Below, piece by piece: positions 6,313 through 29,020 of a stretch of DNA of 29,119 bases. Position 1 is the stretch's first letter. Each line of letters starts with the position of its first letter. The notes beneath the pieces were generated by a model. The model ran no database searches and had not been told where the DNA came from. It was given only the letters and a program-made list of their open reading frames with translations. The stretch is from a virus. Made by a program: the position numbers and the translations under genes. The DNA is taken from positions 1 to 29,119 of IMG/VR virus record IMGVR_UViG_3300004463_000541; one strand, written 5' to 3'.

Positions 6313-6387
6313 ATGCTGTTCAAGATCGTTATCGTACTTTACGTCGTTTTGCTTCGGACCATCTGGAGATACCGGAAGCAAGTTTAA
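6313..6387 (+). CDS. Possible 24-residue membrane microprotein
   Basis: A short frame starts ATG 6 nt after the L-like stop and ends at TAA 6385-6387, inside the 17-bp direct repeat. It encodes a hydrophobic helix (MLFKIVIVLYVVLLR) followed by a basic tail (WRYRKQV), the shape of a single-span membrane microprotein with a cytoplasmic C-terminus. The ribosome binding site is poor (GGA directly adjacent to the start). Nothing identifies a function, and a frame this short can occur by chance. It is listed because the amino-acid pattern is unusually protein-like and it lies in a gap in an otherwise gap-free operon. Confidence 0.3.
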   Translation: MLFKIVIVLYVVLLRTIWRYRKQV

Positions 6388-6396
6388 GTGCTTAAG
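6380..6396 (+). repeat. 17-bp direct repeat, copy 1 (at tnpB-element right end)
   Basis: AAGTTTAAGTGCTTAAG occurs here and again, identically and in the same orientation, at 7702-7718. The two copies bracket the TnpB element exactly. This copy abuts the predicted right end of the element (GTTCAC on the minus strand). Confidence 0.9.
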
Positions 6397-6540
6397 GTGA
6401 ACACTCCCACCCCTAAAGGGATGGGCTTCCAGCTTCATTGGCACGTGCGGATCTAGAAGCTAGCTTCTTTCTCCGACTTATCGTCCCTCGACTGGCAGAA
6501 GCCCCGGTTCCCGAGGCCAACATACGCAATCCTTCGTCGC
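6397..6540 (-). ncRNA. Predicted omega RNA (reRNA) scaffold at the tnpB right end
   Basis: Known TnpB systems make their guide RNA from the 3' end of tnpB through the right end, with the guide being the bases just outside. Here the scaffold would end in the hairpin CCCATCCCT-TT-AGGGGTGGG (minus strand, 6425-6406), then GTGTTCAC. The predicted guide begins with the 17-bp repeat (CTTAAGCACTTAAACTT). The 5' limit is a guess based on typical scaffold lengths. Confidence 0.5.
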
Positions 6541-7597
6541 GGATATTCTTCGCGGCGTTCACGTCCCGATCATGCGAAGCGCCGCAGTGAGAGCAGGTCC
6601 AATGCCGAACCTCCAAACCCATCCTGTCACAAACGTGTCCGCACGCGGAACACGCCTTGCTGGATGGGAACCAGCGGTTGGTTTTGATGAAGGCTTTCCC
6701 CTCACGCTCGCACTTGTATTCGATGAAGCGGGTTAGCGTTCCCCATCCAGCGTCGGAAATCGCCTTCGCCAGATTGGGGTTCTTCACCATGCCCTTCACA
6801 TGCAGGTCTTCCACAACGATCATTTGGTTTTCGTTGACCAACTTGCGGGAGACTTTGTGTAGATGATCGCGCCGCGCATCAGAGACACGTTGATGGGCGC
6901 GGGCGACAAGGCGGCGTGCCTTGGCCCGGCTATTGGAGCCTTTCACTTTGCGCGCCAGCTTGCGCTGTTTGCGCTTCAGGTTGCGTTCCGCCGCCTTGAT
7001 GTGGCGGGGGTTGGCGAACTTGGAACCGTCGCTGGTCACCGCCAGATCGATCAACCCAACATCGATACCGAGGGCATTGCCTTCGGTGCTGACGGACGGA
7101 AGGGGCATGGCGTCATCAGTCAGGACAGCCGCATGAAACTGACCGCAGGCGTTCCGGCTGATCGTCACCGTCTTGATCTTGCCCAAGATCTCACGATGAA
7201 CGATGCACTTCACCCAACCAACCTTCGGCAGATAGATGCGGTTTCCGTCCAGTTTCACCCGCTGCGGATATTGGATAGACTGACGACCGTGCTTCGACTT
7301 GAAGCGAGGGTACTTTGCCCTCTTGGCGAAGAAGTTATCAAACGATGCGGACAGATTCATCAAAGACATTTGAAGCGCTTGGCTATCCGCATCTTTCAGC
7401 CACTCAAACTCTTTCTTCAAGTCAGGGAGTCGAAGATTCAGCGCATGATAGCCAAGCCCTTTGCCTGTTTCCCGGTAGGTCTGCTGCGTCAGATCGAGAG
7501 CGTTGTTCCATACCCACCTTGCACAGCCGAACTGCACAGCAAGTTTTTGCTGCTGTGCAGGAGTTGGGTGGAGGCGGATACGGGTTGCGTTCAACAT
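6413..7597 (-). CDS. tnpB: TnpB RNA-guided nuclease
   Basis: 394 residues, full length for TnpB, with no frameshift. TnpB is an RNA-guided DNA nuclease that cuts at sites specified by an omega RNA made from the element's right end, which helps the element persist; it is the ancestor of Cas12. Visible features in order: N-terminal helix-turn region (RLHPTPAQQQKL, CARWVWNNAL), the OTB_IS605 core (KYPRFKSK), RuvC motif I GIDVGLIDLA with D179, RuvC II VVEDLHVKGM with E263, a four-Cys zinc finger (C316, C319, C335, C338) and RuvC III DRDVNAAKNI with D345. All three acidic residues are present, so it should be active. There is no ribosome binding site ahead of the ATG, and a promoter-like TTGACA lies so close that the message may be leaderless. 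The gene runs against the tail operon. Confidence 0.95.
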   Translation of the reverse strand: MLNATRIRLHPTPAQQQKLAVQFGCARWVWNNALDLTQQTYRETGKGLGYHALNLRLPDLKKEFEWLKDADSQALQMSLMNLSASFDNFFAKRAKYPRFKSKHGRQSIQYPQRVKLDGNRIYLPKVGWVKCIVHREILGKIKTVTISRNACGQFHAAVLTDDAMPLPSVSTEGNALGIDVGLIDLAVTSDGSKFANPRHIKAAERNLKRKQRKLARKVKGSNSRAKARRLVARAHQRVSDARRDHLHKVSRKLVNENQMIVVEDLHVKGMVKNPNLAKAISDAGWGTLTRFIEYKCEREGKAFIKTNRWFPSSKACSACGHVCDRMGLEVRHWTCSHCGASHDRDVNAAKNIRDEGLRMLASGTGASASRGTISRRKKLASRSARANEAGSPSL

Positions 7598-7701: not shown

Positions 7702-7718
7702 AAGTTTAAGTGCTTAAG
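7702..7718 (+). repeat. 17-bp direct repeat, copy 2 (at tnpB-element left end)
   Basis: AAGTTTAAGTGCTTAAG, identical to 6380-6396. Upstream on this side the repeat is extended by GTTT, giving a tandem GTTTAAGTTTAAG that copy 1 lacks. This helps locate which bases belong to the element. Confidence 0.9.
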
Positions 7719-7784
7719 CTGAGAGAAAGCTAACAGAAAGCTGTAGCTTTTGGTGAATTGAGGAATTTCAATCACTTAGCGTTT

Positions 7785-19979: not shown

Positions 19980-22457
19980 ATGTCCAACCTAGCGCCACGT
20001 GGAGACGCGGTCACCGTCCTCATGACGGTCGATAGCACGGACCGGATCTCCCTGTTCAGCGGCGGGACCAAAATTGCAGAGCAACAGGTCGGCAGCAAGA
20101 CCCTGTCCACGACATTGACCGTCGCTAGCCTGCGTTTCGGCGCCACAGAACCCAATGGCTACGATCCGGGAACCTTCCTGATGGAGCAGGTCTCCGGCTG
20201 GACTTTCCCGCTGGTCGATAGCCATGCCCTGCCAGTCTCCGCCGACCTCAACTACGTCCAGGTTACTCCGCAGACCGTCAAGCCGGTCGTCAGCATTCCA
20301 CCCGCGCTGACGGTCAAGGAAGGAGAAACCCTACAGATCCCCGTCACCAAGGAAGGAGCCGGAGCCTGCACCGTACAGCTACGCACCATTGGGGTCAGCG
20401 CCGTGACGCCGACCGACTATACCGGCTTCCTCCTGCCCGTCGCATTCGGCGCCAACGACACCGTCGTGACCGTCCCCTTGGTCACGATCGCCGACACGGA
20501 AGACGATCCGGACCAGACGCTGAAGATCGAGCTGAGTCTGGCCGGATCTACGGATTGCACCCTCGGAAATTCAAACGGAGTCATCACCATCACGGAACCG
20601 CCCCGGATATCGGTTCCGACTACGGCCAGTGTCAAGGAAGGGAATGTCCTTTCCGTCATTGTCACGAAGCTGGGGAGCGGGGCCTGCTCGGTGACGTGGA
20701 GAACTTCCCCTGACACCGCCACTGTCCTGTCCTCAGACTATACCGGTGTCAGCGCCACGACGCTGAACTTCACCTCAGCCGAGACCAGCAAGACGATCAC
20801 GGTGCAGACCCTTACAGATGCCTTGGTCGAGGGCAACGAGTTTTTCTACATCTTCATCGAGAACCCGGCCAACTGTAAGGTCACGACCGGCTCCTGCAAG
20901 GTCACGCTCCTGGACGCCAACAGTCCGGAAGTGCCGGTCCAGACCGCCTATACCCCGGCATCAGGATTTGCCTCCGCCGCCGACTGCGGTCTCGGTTATC
21001 CGGTCTATAAGGTTACCAACCTTGACGACAGCGGACCTGGCTCCCTGCGGGACTGCGTCTCCGGTTCCGGCCGGATGGTCGTGTTCGAGGTCGCCGGGCG
21101 GATCATCCTGTCAACGGATATCCGCCCCTCCGCGAACATCACTATTGCTGGGGAAACCGCACCGCCGCCAGGCATTACCATCCAAAAAAAAGAACTGGTC
21201 ATCACGAACAGCAATGTTCGAGTCAGCCACATAATCTTCGAAAGGGGGTACGAAAACTCAGACCTCTACCGGGACAACGGCGACGTTGCCAAGATCGGTA
21301 CGGGCAGTTCCGTATCCGCCACCACCCTGCCGGACTACACGCCGAAAACGGCCTACACAAACATCCACATCTACCACTGCGCCTTCTACTGGGGTATGGA
21401 TGAGACGGTCCAAATGTTCCCGTGGAACTCCCACACCCTGAGTGCGAGCTATCACGACTGCATCATCACGGAACCGCTCTACAAGCCGTCCATCTATGAC
21501 TCGACCCTACTCAACCACGTCAAACTCTATTCTCCGTACAATCAGTCTAACCACAATTACGGCATGATCTGTGCCTTTAACACCAAACAGACAGACATTC
21601 AGTACTGCCTGTTTTCCGAGATTTCTATGCGTTGTCCGTTCATCGACCACAGCACAGAAATCGTCATCGCCAACAACATTGCCAACAACTGCCGCAATGG
21701 CGCTACGATCCAACAAAACCAGTACATGGTTCTCAACACGACGACCAACACGTTGGAGTCAAAGCCACTTCCTGATTCCTATACCTACAAAGTCACGTGC
21801 AAGGGCTACCTGGCGATCTCCGGACCGGACACGATAACCTCTGTCTACGGCGGCTTCCGCTTTACCAGCTACCTCCTACCGCAGCCCGCCAACTCCAAGG
21901 TCTTCGTCGAAAAACTGTACGGTTGGAAGGGCGGCACTTCCAACAGCACCTACATGCAGCCGAACGATTACGTCACCTACGGTAGTACCGCAGCCGGTTA
22001 CAACGACGTCAAGGGTAAGCCCTACTGGCTCGACGCCATTGGCACCAAGGTGGCCGTCGAGGTCACGACGCCGCCGATCGACACGCCGACACCGACCGTT
22101 GGTCTTGAGGCGCAGGAGATCTTCGACCGTGCCGTCCTCAACGTCGGTCCGCGGCCCAAGGAGATCCGTAACCTGATCGACAAGAAGACCGGCGCCATCG
22201 GGAACCACAATGTCGCCCGTTCCGTCACAAACTTGAAAAATAAGACCGGCCGCTGGGTCAATCACCAAGACGAAACCCAGGTCGGCGGCTACTACGCCCC
22301 GGTCAAGGTCACCCGCACTCTGAATGCCACCGCCAAGTTTCCGGACGGCACCCTGATCGGTGACATCCCGGCCCAACCGCAGCCCGCTACGGCCACCAGC
22401 AAGGCCACCATGAAGGCGTGGCTGCGCAAGCACCTGGACCAAGTCCAGAACGACTAG
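19980..22457 (+). CDS. Tailspike candidate 1: two Calx-beta domains + PL1 pectate-lyase-like beta-helix
   Basis: 825 residues. After an approximately 95-residue N-terminal beta domain (start MSNLAPRGDAVTVLMTV) come two Calx-beta domains (about 98-203 and 205-312), each with a GAC cysteine and a second cysteine near the end. From about 324 is a right-handed beta-helix of the polysaccharide lyase family 1 type: YKVTNLDDSGPGSLRDCV, VVFEVAGRI, ITIAGETAPPPGITIQ, CAFYWGMDETV, HNYGMICAF and MRCPFIDH (about 551), where the Arg aligns with the catalytic Arg of R-x-x-P/SRNPR segments. The end (DRAVLNVGPRPKE, VNHQDETQVGGY) also matches bacterial PL1 enzymes. It has no signal peptide, consistent with a virion depolymerase cleaving an acidic polysaccharide. 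Substrate unknown. Confidence 0.85.
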   Translation: MSNLAPRGDAVTVLMTVDSTDRISLFSGGTKIAEQQVGSKTLSTTLTVASLRFGATEPNGYDPGTFLMEQVSGWTFPLVDSHALPVSADLNYVQVTPQTVKPVVSIPPALTVKEGETLQIPVTKEGAGACTVQLRTIGVSAVTPTDYTGFLLPVAFGANDTVVTVPLVTIADTEDDPDQTLKIELSLAGSTDCTLGNSNGVITITEPPRISVPTTASVKEGNVLSVIVTKLGSGACSVTWRTSPDTATVLSSDYTGVSATTLNFTSAETSKTITVQTLTDALVEGNEFFYIFIENPANCKVTTGSCKVTLLDANSPEVPVQTAYTPASGFASAADCGLGYPVYKVTNLDDSGPGSLRDCVSGSGRMVVFEVAGRIILSTDIRPSANITIAGETAPPPGITIQKKELVITNSNVRVSHIIFERGYENSDLYRDNGDVAKIGTGSSVSATTLPDYTPKTAYTNIHIYHCAFYWGMDETVQMFPWNSHTLSASYHDCIITEPLYKPSIYDSTLLNHVKLYSPYNQSNHNYGMICAFNTKQTDIQYCLFSEISMRCPFIDHSTEIVIANNIANNCRNGATIQQNQYMVLNTTTNTLESKPLPDSYTYKVTCKGYLAISGPDTITSVYGGFRFTSYLLPQPANSKVFVEKLYGWKGGTSNSTYMQPNDYVTYGSTAAGYNDVKGKPYWLDAIGTKVAVEVTTPPIDTPTPTVGLEAQEIFDRAVLNVGPRPKEIRNLIDKKTGAIGNHNVARSVTNLKNKTGRWVNHQDETQVGGYYAPVKVTRTLNATAKFPDGTLIGDIPAQPQPATATSKATMKAWLRKHLDQVQND

Positions 22458-22536: not shown

Positions 22537-24612
22537 TTGTCCCTCATCACCGTCAGCCTCCCCCAGAAACTCGTCGTCAACGAGGGCGAGTCTGTCAAGA
22601 TCCCATTGACCAAGACCGGTATCGGCGCTTGCTCCGTTCAACTCAGGACATCCGGCATCACCGCGACGACGCCCCTAGACTACGAGGACGTCAGTGATCC
22701 TCATGTCGTCAGTTTCACAGACACCCAGATGGAGAACGTCGGTCTACTGGTCACCCTACCGGACGAACTGATCGAAGGTCAGGAGATCCTCACGGTGTGG
22801 GCGCTAAATGCCGAAAACTGTGTCATCATGCAGCCTCGCTGCGAAGTCACCATCATCGACAAGACCGCCCTGCCGGAGCCGCCGCCAGACGCCGAGCTGC
22901 CGACCGTCAGCATCGCGGAGAAGGTCAGCGGTTTGGAAGGAACGGACCTTGCCATTCCCCTGACCAAGACCGGCACGGGAGCCTGCCAGGTCAGCCTCGT
23001 GACGGCTGGGGACACCGCCCAAACGCTGGAGGATTACACCGGCTACAAGACACCGCTGGTCGTCACCTTCGCCGAGGACCAGTCCCAGGTCATGGCAACC
23101 CTGCCGCTGCTGGCCGATACCGCCCCGGAGTCAGACGAGATCCTGAACATCTACGTCAAGGACCCGGTCAACTGCGTGATCGGAAACGGCAAGTCCGAGA
23201 TCACCATCATCGAGAACCCGGAGACCAACCCGCCGCCGGGGGAAGAGCCACCGGTTGGTGACGGCACGGTACCGAGCGCCCCGACGGGTAAGTATCCGCG
23301 CGCCGTCGGTTTTGCCACCGCCATGGCCGCCGGACGGGGCAAGCCGTTCTACCGGGTGACCAACCTCAACGACAGCGGTCCCGGTTCTCTGCGGGAAGCC
23401 ACCAGGGGCGGCAATCGGATGATCGTCTTTGAGGTCGGCGGCTGCATCAAGCTTAAGAGCACGCTGCTGATCGATGCTGACAACATCACCATCGCCGGTC
23501 AGACCGCACCGGGCAGCGGCATCACGATCCAGGCCAAGGAACTGGTGATCAAGGCATCCTTCATCCGGATAGAGCACATCAATTTCGAGCGCGGTCATGA
23601 TCCCAGTAATCTAGGCAATGCCGACTGCGTCAAGGTCAACCCCGGCGCCGACAGCAGTCGCTGGTCCCGCTCTAACGTCCACTTCAACCACTGCTCGTTC
23701 ATGTGGGGGATGGACGAGACAGTCGAAATATGGCCAGCATCGGGCAAACTGACCAACGTTTCCTTCACCAACTGCCTGTTCTCCGAGCCGATGTGGCGCC
23801 CGCAGAAGCTCGGCTACGCGCCGCACGAAAAGGTCAAGGCGGGCAAGCAGAGCGAGCACAACTACGGCGTCCTAATCGGCTTCAACACCAAGAAGGTAGA
23901 CATCCAGCACTGCCTGTTTTCCGACATGTACATGCGCTGCCCATTCATCGACCACGGCACCACGAGTGTCATCGCCAATAATATCCTGATGAACGTCAGG
24001 ATGGGCGTCACGATCCAGCAGAACCGCTCGCCGAAGCCGACCGCCGCCTGCCTGGTCAACTGCCAGGGAATCTTGGTGATCTCCGGTCCGCAGAGCAGCG
24101 ATGCCACCGGCTTTCGCTTCCATTCCTACCACGACAAATGGCCGTCCGGCTCGGCGGTCTACGTCTCCAACCTGTACGGCTGGAAGGGCGCCAACGGCGC
24201 GATCACGCCGGGCACCAACGTTACTTTCAGCCGGGGACAGCCGGTCCAGGGATCTAACAACACCAAGGTTCGGGTCTCAAAGTCGCCGATCGAACCGCCG
24301 GGCACCACCATCAAGGCGCTGAGCGCCAACGATATCCATGACCGTATCGTCAACAATTCCGGCCCGATGCCAAAGGTCTCTAAGCGTCCGGCCTCGGTTG
24401 CCAGGATCATCAAGAAGGTAGCCACCAAGACCTCCGGTTGGGTCGATCATCCGAGCCAGGTCGGCGGCTTCTCCAGCTACCCCGTGGTTACCCGGAAGCT
24501 GGAGGATGCAACCCTGCCCGATGGCAGCAGAATCCCGGTCCCCAACCACGGGGATGCGGAAGGGGTTCAGAAGTGGCTCGACATTTTCAACAGCCTCGTG
24601 AGCTACGACTGA
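22537..24612 (+). CDS. Tailspike candidate 2: paralogous Calx-beta + PL1 pectate-lyase-like protein
   Basis: 691 residues. TTG start chosen for the well-placed AAGGAAG site 7 nt upstream. It lacks the N-terminal domain of the preceding paralog and begins directly with Calx-beta domain 1 (about 1-108: KTGIGACSVQLRTSG) and domain 2 (about 110-225: KTGTGACQVSLVTAG), then a proline-rich linker and a PL1 beta-helix from about 252: YRVTNLNDSGPGSLREAT, ITIAGQTAPGSGITIQ, CSFMWGMDETVEIWP, HNYGVLIGF, MRCPFIDH (about 466), ending DRIVNNSGPMPK and WVDHPSQVGGF. All PL1 landmarks are kept, so both copies may be active. Without the N-terminal domain it may attach to the virion differently, perhaps through the first spike. 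Confidence 0.83.
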   Translation: MSLITVSLPQKLVVNEGESVKIPLTKTGIGACSVQLRTSGITATTPLDYEDVSDPHVVSFTDTQMENVGLLVTLPDELIEGQEILTVWALNAENCVIMQPRCEVTIIDKTALPEPPPDAELPTVSIAEKVSGLEGTDLAIPLTKTGTGACQVSLVTAGDTAQTLEDYTGYKTPLVVTFAEDQSQVMATLPLLADTAPESDEILNIYVKDPVNCVIGNGKSEITIIENPETNPPPGEEPPVGDGTVPSAPTGKYPRAVGFATAMAAGRGKPFYRVTNLNDSGPGSLREATRGGNRMIVFEVGGCIKLKSTLLIDADNITIAGQTAPGSGITIQAKELVIKASFIRIEHINFERGHDPSNLGNADCVKVNPGADSSRWSRSNVHFNHCSFMWGMDETVEIWPASGKLTNVSFTNCLFSEPMWRPQKLGYAPHEKVKAGKQSEHNYGVLIGFNTKKVDIQHCLFSDMYMRCPFIDHGTTSVIANNILMNVRMGVTIQQNRSPKPTAACLVNCQGILVISGPQSSDATGFRFHSYHDKWPSGSAVYVSNLYGWKGANGAITPGTNVTFSRGQPVQGSNNTKVRVSKSPIEPPGTTIKALSANDIHDRIVNNSGPMPKVSKRPASVARIIKKVATKTSGWVDHPSQVGGFSSYPVVTRKLEDATLPDGSRIPVPNHGDAEGVQKWLDIFNSLVSYD

Positions 24613-26702: not shown

Positions 26703-27494
26703 ATGGTAACATCCCTCGGATTGAGAAATAACAACCCGATGAACCTCCGGCATTCCGGAGACAAGTGGATCGGCATGCGCGCGGAGCAGACGGACCCCGG
26801 CTTCGTTCAGTTCCAGACCAGCTTCCACGGCCTGCGCGCCGCCGCCAAGAACCTGCTGACGTACTATCGGCGGTACGAGCGCAAAACCGTCTCTGCCATC
26901 GTCACCGCCTGGGCTCCGAGCAGCGACGGCAACGACACCGCGGCCTATATCACCACGGTGGCAAAGTCCATGGGCGTCGATCCTGACGGTATCATCGACC
27001 TCAACGACAAGCTCACCCTGCGCCGCCTGATGGATGCCATGATCCGCGTCGAGCTTGGGTCCCAACCCTACAGCACCATTGAACTGGAGGCAGCCATAGA
27101 GTCCGCCCATACGACAGACCAGGCACCGCCTGTTGTCGAGACCCGCCCGTCCCCCGGACCTTCCCCTGACGGAAAACCGCCGCTGGTCGACCAACCCAGC
27201 AAGATGCCTACCCGCAAGATCCTGGTCGGCGGCATCGTCGGCGCCTGTACCTTCATGCTGATGGTGATTTGGAACCGGATCTTCCCGGAAAGCCCGCTCA
27301 GCACTGAGTATGCAACGGAAATCGCCAGCGCCATCGTTCTCGGGGTGACCCTGGTAACCCAGTATATGGTCCGCAACCGGGCTACGGATGTCCCTCCCGG
27401 AGACGAGGGAGGTGTGGAGAATGGGACTCCCGTCAAAAAGGACGTCGTGATTTATCCAGCCCCGACCAAGTCCAGGACGGAGACGCCGTCGTGA
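26703..27494 (+). CDS. Murein-hydrolase-like protein fused to a two-TM holin-like tail
   Basis: 263 residues. Residues 1-130 match the phage lysin/structural type that begins RNNNPxNxRxxxxxWxGM (here LRNNNPMNLRHSGDKWIGM), continues FVQFQTSFHGLRAAAKNLLTYYRRY, then IVTAWAPSSDGNDTAAYITTVAK and ends near a PYS segment; such proteins are annotated as PRD1 P5-like structural proteins or muralytic enzymes. A proline-rich linker (about 135-170) leads to two TM helices (about 173-190 and 205-222) joined by a short loop, then a polar tail. This C-terminal module looks like small phage holins. A single chain with lysin and holin-like parts would tether the enzyme to the inner membrane. The catalytic residue cannot be assigned from sequence alone. 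Confidence 0.7.
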   Translation: MVTSLGLRNNNPMNLRHSGDKWIGMRAEQTDPGFVQFQTSFHGLRAAAKNLLTYYRRYERKTVSAIVTAWAPSSDGNDTAAYITTVAKSMGVDPDGIIDLNDKLTLRRLMDAMIRVELGSQPYSTIELEAAIESAHTTDQAPPVVETRPSPGPSPDGKPPLVDQPSKMPTRKILVGGIVGACTFMLMVIWNRIFPESPLSTEYATEIASAIVLGVTLVTQYMVRNRATDVPPGDEGGVENGTPVKKDVVIYPAPTKSRTETPS

Positions 27495-27706
27495 CCGCAT
27501 CCAACCGATGGACATGCTATCGCTGTACGATGGAATTCCATATCCGGAAATCGCACGGTGAAGCGGAACACCACCTCTGTCCCGAATGCGGTCTACCGTT
27601 CTGGTCTGCCAAACTGAGATCAGAGGCCCCTTCCCATGGCCGGGTGCGGGTCGGTGTCGATCCCCAGTGCTCCCTGATCCACCCGCTTGAAGGCGTCTGC
27701 CTATGA
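27491..27706 (+). CDS. Small zinc-ribbon-like protein, unknown role
   Basis: 71 residues, GTG start overlapping the previous stop (GTGA). Two CxxC knuckles, C9-C12 (TCYRC) and C30-C33 (LCPEC), with histidines between them, form a zinc-ribbon or rubredoxin-like knuckle of about 35 residues; the rest is short and polar. There is no TM segment. It could be a small nucleic-acid-binding or regulatory protein. The stop overlaps the next start (ATGA), so it is part of the coupled lysis-region operon. Function not recognised. Confidence 0.6.
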   Translation: MTASNRWTCYRCTMEFHIRKSHGEAEHHLCPECGLPFWSAKLRSEAPSHGRVRVGVDPQCSLIHPLEGVCL

Positions 27707-28080
27707 TACGCTATGCAATCCCGCTCCTGGTCCTGGCGATCTCCGCCTGCGCCGGGTTGCCGCCGGACTTTCCTAATTCCACGGGTGCAGGCACCCAGGA
27801 AGAAACCCTCTGGGGGCGTGCGGTTGCCCGCTACAGCGAGCACCAGCATGCGGCCCTGGATTACGCCATCAAGTGCGATGCCCAGTTGTCAGCGGATGTC
27901 CAGCCGTGCGATGTGGTCGTGGACCAGTTGGCCGATATCGACAACCTTGGGGCAGCCGTCCAGAAAGACGGAGAACAGGCGTTGCTGCGCAAGGACCTGC
28001 CCCGACTCAACGAAGCCATCCGGGACCTGGACGCCGTGGGAGATGAACTGACTCTAGCCATGCAACGAGGTGTACCATGA
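27703..28080 (+). CDS. Small lipoprotein, outer-spanin candidate
   Basis: 125 residues. An N-terminal signal peptide ends in a lipobox (I-S-A-C16), so the mature protein is about 110 residues and lipid-anchored. Residues 30-125 are alpha-helical and acidic, with two further cysteines (C42 and C52). A lipoprotein just after the lysin-like gene is the usual place for the outer-membrane spanin that fuses inner and outer membranes at the last step of lysis, but it is longer than Rz1 and not proline-rich, so this is an inference from position. The overlap with the next gene (ATGA) suggests a pair. Confidence 0.6.
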   Translation: MIRYAIPLLVLAISACAGLPPDFPNSTGAGTQEETLWGRAVARYSEHQHAALDYAIKCDAQLSADVQPCDVVVDQLADIDNLGAAVQKDGEQALLRKDLPRLNEAIRDLDAVGDELTLAMQRGVP

Positions 28081-28349
28081 TTCCGCTGATCGCCAGCCTG
28101 GTCTTGACCGGCCTCGACCTCGCCGTCCAGGTGGACCGCCAGCGCCGCCGTCCCGGTTACGTTCCGAATGAACGGGAAGTAGAGGCAGCCAAAACCGTCG
28201 AGCAGTTCAGAGAGCTTCTGGCATCGGCCGTTCGGGAAAACCGCACGATGTCCACGGACGAAATCAAGTTCTGGTTCAGCCGCGTGAACGCTGACCGGAA
28301 CGAGTTGCAGCGGCGGGCCGATGAAAATGAGGCCGGGGGGATGAAGTAG
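28077..28349 (+). CDS. Small helical protein with hydrophobic N-terminus, possible partner of the lipoprotein
   Basis: 90 residues. GAGGTG binding site 6 nt before the ATG, which overlaps the lipoprotein stop. Residues 1-18 are hydrophobic (MIPLIASLVLTGLDLAV), then a basic stretch (RQRRRPGY) and a charged helix (about 30-85). This could be a membrane-anchored partner of the lipoprotein (inner spanin-like), although inner spanins are usually longer and encoded first. No family recognised. It is the last plus-strand gene of the operon, and its final 74 bases are overlapped by the convergent minus-strand gene. Confidence 0.6.
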   Translation: MIPLIASLVLTGLDLAVQVDRQRRRPGYVPNEREVEAAKTVEQFRELLASAVRENRTMSTDEIKFWFSRVNADRNELQRRADENEAGGMK

Positions 28350-28968
28350 GCTTGTTGTTGGCTTTGGCCTTGTTGGACCCGCCTCCTCCCGGAGATTTTT
28401 CCTGCTTCATCCTGAACGATCCTGAACGAAACGGGTACGTCCTGGATATCTTTCCTTCGGACATCGTCCACACGGAGATGTAGCCATCCGCCTGGGTGGG
28501 CCAGCGCTTCTTCTTGCGGGCGATCCGCCTAACCCTTCGCGCGGCTTTCTCCACGGCTGCAATCGCCCGCCCGATCCCCTTCTCCCCCTTGGCGTAGAAC
28601 CATTCCGTGCCGCGCCTCGATCCTCTGACCCAGGTTACCCGCCAGCGCGCCATGAACCGATGCGCGACGAATTCCACCGAAGCCGGAAAGGGCACATGGT
28701 CCAGCTTCCAGATGCAGACCGGATCACCTCCCATATCCCGGCGGATCTCCTCGATCCGGACAGTGATGTCCCGCCGCCGGGTAACGCCGATCTTGATGAC
28801 ACCGACATCCGACAAGCTTCTGTCCCACAGGATATAAACCGTTCCCGTCATGGCATCCCCGAGCGTGACGCGCGGCCTGAAGCGCCTCACGACCCGCCAG
28901 ACCAATCGTCCCAACCATATCACGAGAGAAAACAGGGCAAAGACCGTTGCGGTCCATTCCACCGGCAT
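28276..28968 (-). CDS. Membrane-anchored T5orf172 (GIY-YIG superfamily) nuclease candidate
   Basis: 230 residues from ATG 28968; a TTG nine bases earlier is possible, but AAGGA and GAGG sites serve the ATG. One TM helix (about 6-24) is followed by a strongly basic stretch (RLVWRVVRRFRPR), so the rest should face the cytoplasm. Residues about 41-126 match the T5orf172/Mug113 branch of the GIY-YIG fold: GTVYIL, VIKIGVTRR, R71, VEFVAHRF with E99, and TEWFYAK with E122. The C-terminal 100 residues are basic and low-complexity (KKKR, GGGGSNKAKANNK), probably DNA-binding or disordered. It is the only phage-like gene on the minus strand and lies at the end of the lysis block, a common site for lysogenic-conversion or exclusion genes. 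The nuclease role is inferred from the fold. Confidence 0.75.
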   Translation of the reverse strand: MPVEWTATVFALFSLVIWLGRLVWRVVRRFRPRVTLGDAMTGTVYILWDRSLSDVGVIKIGVTRRRDITVRIEEIRRDMGGDPVCIWKLDHVPFPASVEFVAHRFMARWRVTWVRGSRRGTEWFYAKGEKGIGRAIAAVEKAARRVRRIARKKKRWPTQADGYISVWTMSEGKISRTYPFRSGSFRMKQEKSPGGGGSNKAKANNKPTSSPRPHFHRPAAATRSGQRSRG

Positions 28969-28987: not shown

Positions 28988-29020
28988 AACGGGGCGGCTC
29001 CTCGTCGGAAACGCCCCGTT
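28988..29020. terminator. Hairpin at the window's right edge, possible terminator
   Basis: AACGGGGCG (28988-28996) pairs perfectly with CGCCCCGTT (29012-29020) around a 15-nt loop, followed on the plus strand by TTTGG. The strong stem and partial T-tract suit a terminator in either direction, lying between the minus-strand gene and whatever follows. Beyond it, 29021-29119 holds no gene that can be assigned. Confidence 0.45.

Follow-up and report, generated by a model that had tools for sequence, protein, structure and literature searches.

Why would a siphophage carry, at the edge of its late region and on the opposite strand, a small nuclease that appears to be fixed in the inner membrane? 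The gene lies near the end of a viral contig of 29,119 nucleotides (IMG/VR record IMGVR_UViG_3300004463_000541), the whole of which is referred to here as the window. The original prediction, made from the DNA alone, described it as a possible minimal superinfection-exclusion nuclease, related in its logic to the defense protein SNIPE and expressed from a prophage.

Gene location and late-gene neighborhood

In the late region of the window, a lambda-type siphophage tail module that includes two pectate-lyase tailspikes precedes an endolysin-like protein containing a membrane hairpin, a small gene of lipoprotein-like character and finally a small membrane gene. As genes of these three kinds end the late region, describing the nuclease as being beside the lysis genes is fair, and its open reading frame was found at exactly the predicted coordinates. 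The features at this end of the window are as follows.

26703..27494, plus strand: endolysin-like late protein with a membrane hairpin (PHROG 873, N-terminal part)
27703..28080, plus strand: small lipoprotein-like late gene of the lysis region, conserved
28077..28349, plus strand: 90-aa late gene, convergent with the nuclease and conserved in the related loci L002 and L003
28276..28968, minus strand: membrane-anchored T5orf172 (GIY-YIG type) nuclease of 230 aa, with the ATG at 28968 and the stop codon ending at 28276
28276..28349, minus strand: end of the basic, disordered C-terminal tail of the nuclease, a 74-bp overlap with the convergent late gene
28989..29019, minus strand: GC-rich hairpin (RNA fold), some 20 nt before the start codon
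29020..29119, plus strand: beginning of a small membrane-protein frame that runs divergently and is truncated where the contig ends

A hairpin is also located just upstream of the L003 homologue, and no T-run terminator is scored in the window. The divergent membrane-protein frame is common to the window and L003, with an alignment score of 84, where 2000 shuffles peak at 54. At L002, two tail-fibre-like genes separate the nuclease from the convergent 90-aa late gene.

The position beside the lysis region could indicate a late action, for example the degradation of host DNA at the membrane during lysis. However, the gene and the late operon are on opposite strands, which would make late transcription antisense to the nuclease, and a weak scan found no late promoter on the nuclease strand, making such a role extremely unlikely.

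A lone RNA-guided TnpB gene (6413-7597, minus strand) sits between the L-like and K-like tail genes, flanked at 6380-6400 and 7702-7722 by near-identical 21-nt repeats (AAGTTTAAGTGCTTAAGGTGA), and its product shares 69% identity with a TnpB-like transposase of plasmid pSR-4, which is described below. The two pectate-lyase tailspike genes (19980-22457 and 22537-24612) are in tandem and have the look of a duplication, with a 182-nt repeat at 70% identity. The related record G003 is the same virus, being 100% identical over window bases 1-27098 and stopping short of the nuclease gene; in the tail region just upstream of the window it has a second, conventional GIY-YIG gene (G003 28302-28826, locus L015, minus strand; GIYKITN...KIYIGSA) with an HNH-like gene nearby, both being ordinary homing-type candidates. 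The related contig G001 encodes a 1036-aa protein with an intein-splicing domain (G001 71825-74935, L032 825-3935) just upstream of a portal-like gene, the usual position of the large terminase.

Predicted catalytic domain

The window protein is a member of the T5orf172 family (Pfam ID PF10544), with an E value of 6e-7 and a score of 30.3 bits against a curated Pfam cut-off of 20 bits; two close homologues score 39.6 and 40.0 bits. The original prediction had named the domain T5orf172/Mug113, of which the first name holds, whereas the window's own protein has no match above the Pfam cut-off for Mug113, which is passed by homologue L002 alone (24.7 bits against 22.3). The domain and its two key codons are placed as follows.

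28543..28845, minus strand: T5orf172 domain, residues 42-142 (GTVYI...KIG...R...E99...GTEWF), from the Pfam match, viral fold matches and invariant residues
28792..28794, minus strand: codon of K59 in the KIG motif, at the place of the second Tyr of YIG
28672..28674, minus strand: codon of E99, the predicted metal-binding catalytic glutamate

In an alignment of eight homologues with identity down to 28%, the positions G42, T43, V44, Y45, K59, G61, T63, R65 and R71, and further along P93, E99, R110, R119, E122, W123, A143 and W156, are invariant. Both residues that had been singled out for mutation, E99 and the lysine of KIGVT (K59), are thus among those that do not vary in this alignment. A catalytic role for E99 is predicted by inference from characterized GIY-YIG enzymes.

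The AlphaFold2 model, computed from an input alignment of three sequences, has a low overall confidence (pLDDT 59.6) and shows a helix at residues 3-29, a core of mixed alpha-beta structure at 41-126, a second helix at 128-152 and a disordered tail. When this fold is compared with viral structure models, T5orf172, Mug113 and Bro proteins are among the best matches, of which 18 have E values of 0.001 or below, so that the protein resembles the T5orf172 family both in having the same nuclease domain above the cut-off and in the fold class of its viral structure matches. A fold search of the PDB with the model gave nothing significant, the GIY-YIG nuclease Slx1 being found at an E value of 0.86 only.

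Predicted membrane anchor and topology

The segment preceding the nuclease domain had been read as a membrane anchor with a positive-inside flank, and the analysis supports this, predicting one N-terminal transmembrane helix and then a basic flank, both kept in the two close homologues.

28888..28956, minus strand: N-terminal transmembrane helix of residues about 5-27, with a basic flank (WRVVRRFRPR) after it, from hydropathy, conservation and the AlphaFold2 helix

The top 19-residue hydropathy window covers residues 9-27 with a mean of 1.90 (Kyte-Doolittle), a value attained only 12 times when the same residues are shuffled 1000 times, and past residue 40 all windows are at or below 0.94. Because residues 22-40 hold five K/R against one D/E, the protein is predicted to be N-out, C-in, and by the positive-inside rule the nuclease domain is predicted to be on the cytoplasmic side, separated from the helix by only about 15 residues.

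Conservation in related viruses

Single-sequence searches with the window protein gave no match in phages, plasmids, viral contigs or genome contigs, and a profile search of genome contigs and the PDB gave none either. Relatives were reached by synteny via the neighboring endolysin-like gene, which yielded three useful records (G001, G002 and G003). The nuclease has the same locus and strand in the viral contigs G001 (143 kb, 56% identity) and G002 (24 kb, 57% identity), and is therefore present at the same place in all three viruses covering the locus, with no empty site seen. The alignment of the close homologues retains the helix, the flank WRVVRR[FY]RPR and the motifs GTVYI, K[IV]GVT, E99 and GTEWFYA.

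Between L003 and L002, substitutions per codon position are 0.14, 0.13 and 0.36, with the third position highest. The dN/dS ratio is 0.21 for this pair and 0.27-0.31 in comparison with the window; within the pair, constraint is strongest in the helix (0.14) and the nuclease domain (0.12), with the C-terminal tail changing fastest. The reading frame is a real conserved gene under purifying selection and not a chance antisense frame, since two viral contigs share its locus and strand, third-position changes dominate and dN/dS is 0.21-0.31.

These observations also bear on the role that T5orf172 proteins most often have in phages, that of a homing endonuclease, which would make the gene a selfish element. 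T5orf172 homing nucleases are frequent in phages and carry CapR-like zinc fingers (PMC10448857), and the same virus has the separate GIY-YIG and HNH-like genes in its tail region. In the window protein, on the other hand, Pfam finds no zinc-finger DNA-binding module (CapR, DUF723), there is a single cysteine, and a membrane anchor replaces the zinc-finger repeats of the phage homing enzymes. The gene furthermore lies on the opposite strand, outside the late operon, and keeps one locus in three viruses with a divergence not far above that of the neighboring genes. Given the lack of a zinc-finger DNA-binding domain and the conserved locus, we regard homing as very unlikely here.

VirD4 neighbor and plasmid pSR-4

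In G002, the next gene upstream on the nuclease strand encodes a VirD4/TraG coupling protein (Pfam ID PF02534, 257 bits). G002 is the one related contig in which sequence continues beyond the nuclease gene; in the window, 151 bp precede the nuclease start. At L003, the divergent membrane-protein frame sits between the nuclease and virD4, and because the same frame is found in the window, this virus may have the same order of nuclease, membrane frame and virD4.

The nearest relative found for the G002 VirD4, at 59% identity, is on plasmid pSR-4 of Skermanella rosea (NZ_CP086115.1, circular, 100,864 bp). The annotation of pSR-4 includes a siphophage part with terminase, portal, capsid, tape measure, tail genes and lysozyme, and a conjugation part, in which VirB3, VirB8-VirB11, VirD4 and a MobF relaxase are accompanied by further type IV secretion proteins. 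The plasmid (L022, L023 and L024) is a candidate conjugative phage-plasmid and is typed as "non-mobilizable" in PLSDB. No nuclease homologue lies beside virD4 on pSR-4. The gene that follows virD4 there also encodes 230 aa, but it was rejected as a counterpart, being non-homologous (hhalign probability 0.05 of 100).

Searches of the four related records, each possibly a fragment, found neither a tyrosine integrase (PF00589) nor ParA (PF13614), and neither VirB4 nor a MobF/TrwC relaxase. The minus-strand orientation against the late operon had been read as fitting expression from a prophage; as no tyrosine integrase was found in the four possibly fragmentary records and VirD4 is the next gene in G002, the setting appears to differ from that of a simple prophage end. 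A phage-plasmid life is suggested for this virus group.

Homologues on roseobacter plasmids

Weak matches on plasmids were found when the L003 protein was used as the query, and profile comparison confirmed these as true homologues; the hhalign comparison with a Thioclava protein has a probability of 95 and an E value of 2e-8 over 125 columns, reaching past the nuclease domain into the following basic helix. This wider family is made up of proteins of 140-160 aa on roseobacter plasmids of conjugative and mobilizable kinds, roughly half of them typed conjugative, with WP_259993183.1 (Leisingera) and WP_339115631.1 (Thioclava) as examples. The proteins are labelled "GIY-YIG nuclease family protein" or "hypothetical protein" or have no annotation. 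They share with the window protein the nuclease domain and the basic helix, but the roseobacter plasmid GIY-YIG proteins, at 140-159 aa, have no transmembrane helix and no C-terminal tail and begin with a short basic-aromatic N-terminus. The helix, whose absence in conserved homologues had been named as evidence against the original prediction, is hence kept in both close homologues and missing in the wider plasmid family. As none of the plasmid homologues examined has a transmembrane helix, the anchor is, as far as these sequences indicate, specific to the phage lineage, either gained there or lost elsewhere in the plasmid nuclease family.

On two backbones the homologue directly follows a virB operon. 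In Leisingera unnamed4 it comes after virB9, virB10, virB11 and further type IV secretion genes and is convergent with virD4, and in Phaeobacter pP73_d it comes after virB11. Other plasmid homologues are near ParB, ssb and thermonuclease genes. These positions, together with the virD4 gene immediately upstream in G002, which has the same orientation, would fit a conjugation or plasmid-maintenance nuclease that acts where the type IV secretion channel has its base in the inner membrane, processing or resolving DNA during transfer or establishment and taking no part in exclusion. However, in pP73_d and Leisingera the homologue stands apart as a small gene of its own at the operon's edge, and the nuclease does not seem to be needed for a pSR-4-type system, because no homologue follows virD4 on the S. 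rosea plasmid, which carries the closest VirD4. We consider this explanation possible but rather doubtful. Judged by the neighborhood, conjugation-linked exclusion or DNA processing fits as well as superinfection exclusion does. Among the papers searched, mostly those available without subscription, nothing was found on conjugation-linked GIY-YIG nucleases.

On pP73_d, an unlisted 49-aa frame with one transmembrane helix (L041 6823-6972) ends 2 bp before the homologue; it may be the anchor half of a split anchor-nuclease, but as it is found on one backbone only and the other homologues examined have no comparable transmembrane frame directly upstream, we give it no weight. A conserved gene of 64-65 aa (L026 3225-3419 and L025 5744-5941) overlaps the start of the soluble nuclease by one base, an arrangement of translational coupling, and in Thioclava an 85-aa gene with several transmembrane helices precedes it. 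The idea of a type IV secretion effector with an arginine-rich C-terminus was rejected, as the tail is the least conserved part of the window protein and is missing in the plasmid homologues, and the N-terminal anchor speaks against export.

A further similarity is to PDC-S57, a PADLOC defense candidate, whose profile resembles the nuclease core weakly (best E value 1e-5, homologue L002). The match is partial, and unlike the window protein, the profile begins at the nuclease core and has no N-terminal transmembrane helix.

Comparison with SNIPE and proposed function

SNIPE (Saxton et al. 2026) has one transmembrane helix with a periplasmic N-terminus, a DUF4041 region and a GIY-YIG nuclease, and cuts phage DNA during injection; the E414A exchange abolishes defense, the protein without its transmembrane helix is toxic, and DUF4041 is needed for defense (PMC13190303). 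In the literature covered, mostly papers available without subscription, SNIPE was the one membrane-bound GIY-YIG nuclease found in an exclusion context. The window protein resembles SNIPE in its single N-terminal transmembrane helix, its cytoplasmic GIY-YIG-type nuclease and its catalytic glutamate, all of them predicted here, and the periplasmic N-terminus, measured for SNIPE, is likewise predicted for the window protein. Unlike SNIPE, it is phage-encoded and about 230 aa long, its wider homologues are plasmid genes without a transmembrane helix, and Pfam matches no DUF4041 region in it, in agreement with the original prediction. Because DUF4041 is absent, we do not count the window protein as a SNIPE, although by analogy it may work like one.

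Our tentative preference, held at somewhat less than an even chance, is for a compact membrane-tethered nuclease that cuts DNA at entry and excludes competing elements, for which SNIPE provides a precedent. The helix (residues 5-27, N-out/C-in) would tether the T5orf172 catalytic domain (residues 42-142), the basic helix and the disordered basic tail to the inner membrane. We infer a catalytically active protein with this topology, which would cut DNA just entering the cytoplasm and would thereby keep competing elements out for as long as the cell harbors the virus or phage-plasmid. With the nuclease tethered, cutting would be confined to the point of entry and resident DNA would be left intact, and the target could be phage DNA, conjugating DNA or both. 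Against this explanation stand the missing DUF4041-like targeting domain, the conjugation gene seen in a single related contig, the negative searches for VirB4 and a MobF/TrwC relaxase in the four possibly fragmentary records, and the plasmid homologues without a transmembrane helix; given these homologues, membrane entry need not be the basic job of the nuclease family.

Superinfection exclusion is a reasonable function for the nuclease. Many superinfection-exclusion proteins act at the membrane, which could favor exclusion aimed at phages only, with incoming phage genomes cut at the membrane. The gene is encoded by a siphophage, and the combination of a transmembrane helix with a GIY-YIG nuclease is that of SNIPE (PMC13190303), but there is no targeting domain, the family context is that of plasmids, and no integrase or lysogeny gene was identified in the related records. 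We judge this restriction to phages unlikely; our confidence in it overlaps with that in the tethered entry nuclease, because it is a special case of that explanation, in which the target is left open. A broader reading joins the two contexts, proposing a DNA-cutting entry exclusion common to phages and conjugative plasmids, in which a conjugation-module GIY-YIG family became anchored in the phage-plasmid lineage and destroys any incoming DNA. This seems improbable to us as a whole.

Significance

SNIPE is an example of a membrane-held nuclease that tells self from non-self by place alone (PMC13190303). If a SNIPE-like logic were true for the window protein, which has no DUF4041, either the anchor and nuclease would suffice or another form of targeting would exist. 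The link to conjugation genes raises the question of whether mobile elements use membrane-tethered nucleases against the DNA of rival phages and plasmids. The proteins described here add a family to searches for defense and exclusion systems, whose plasmid homologues have so far been listed under generic names or left without annotation.
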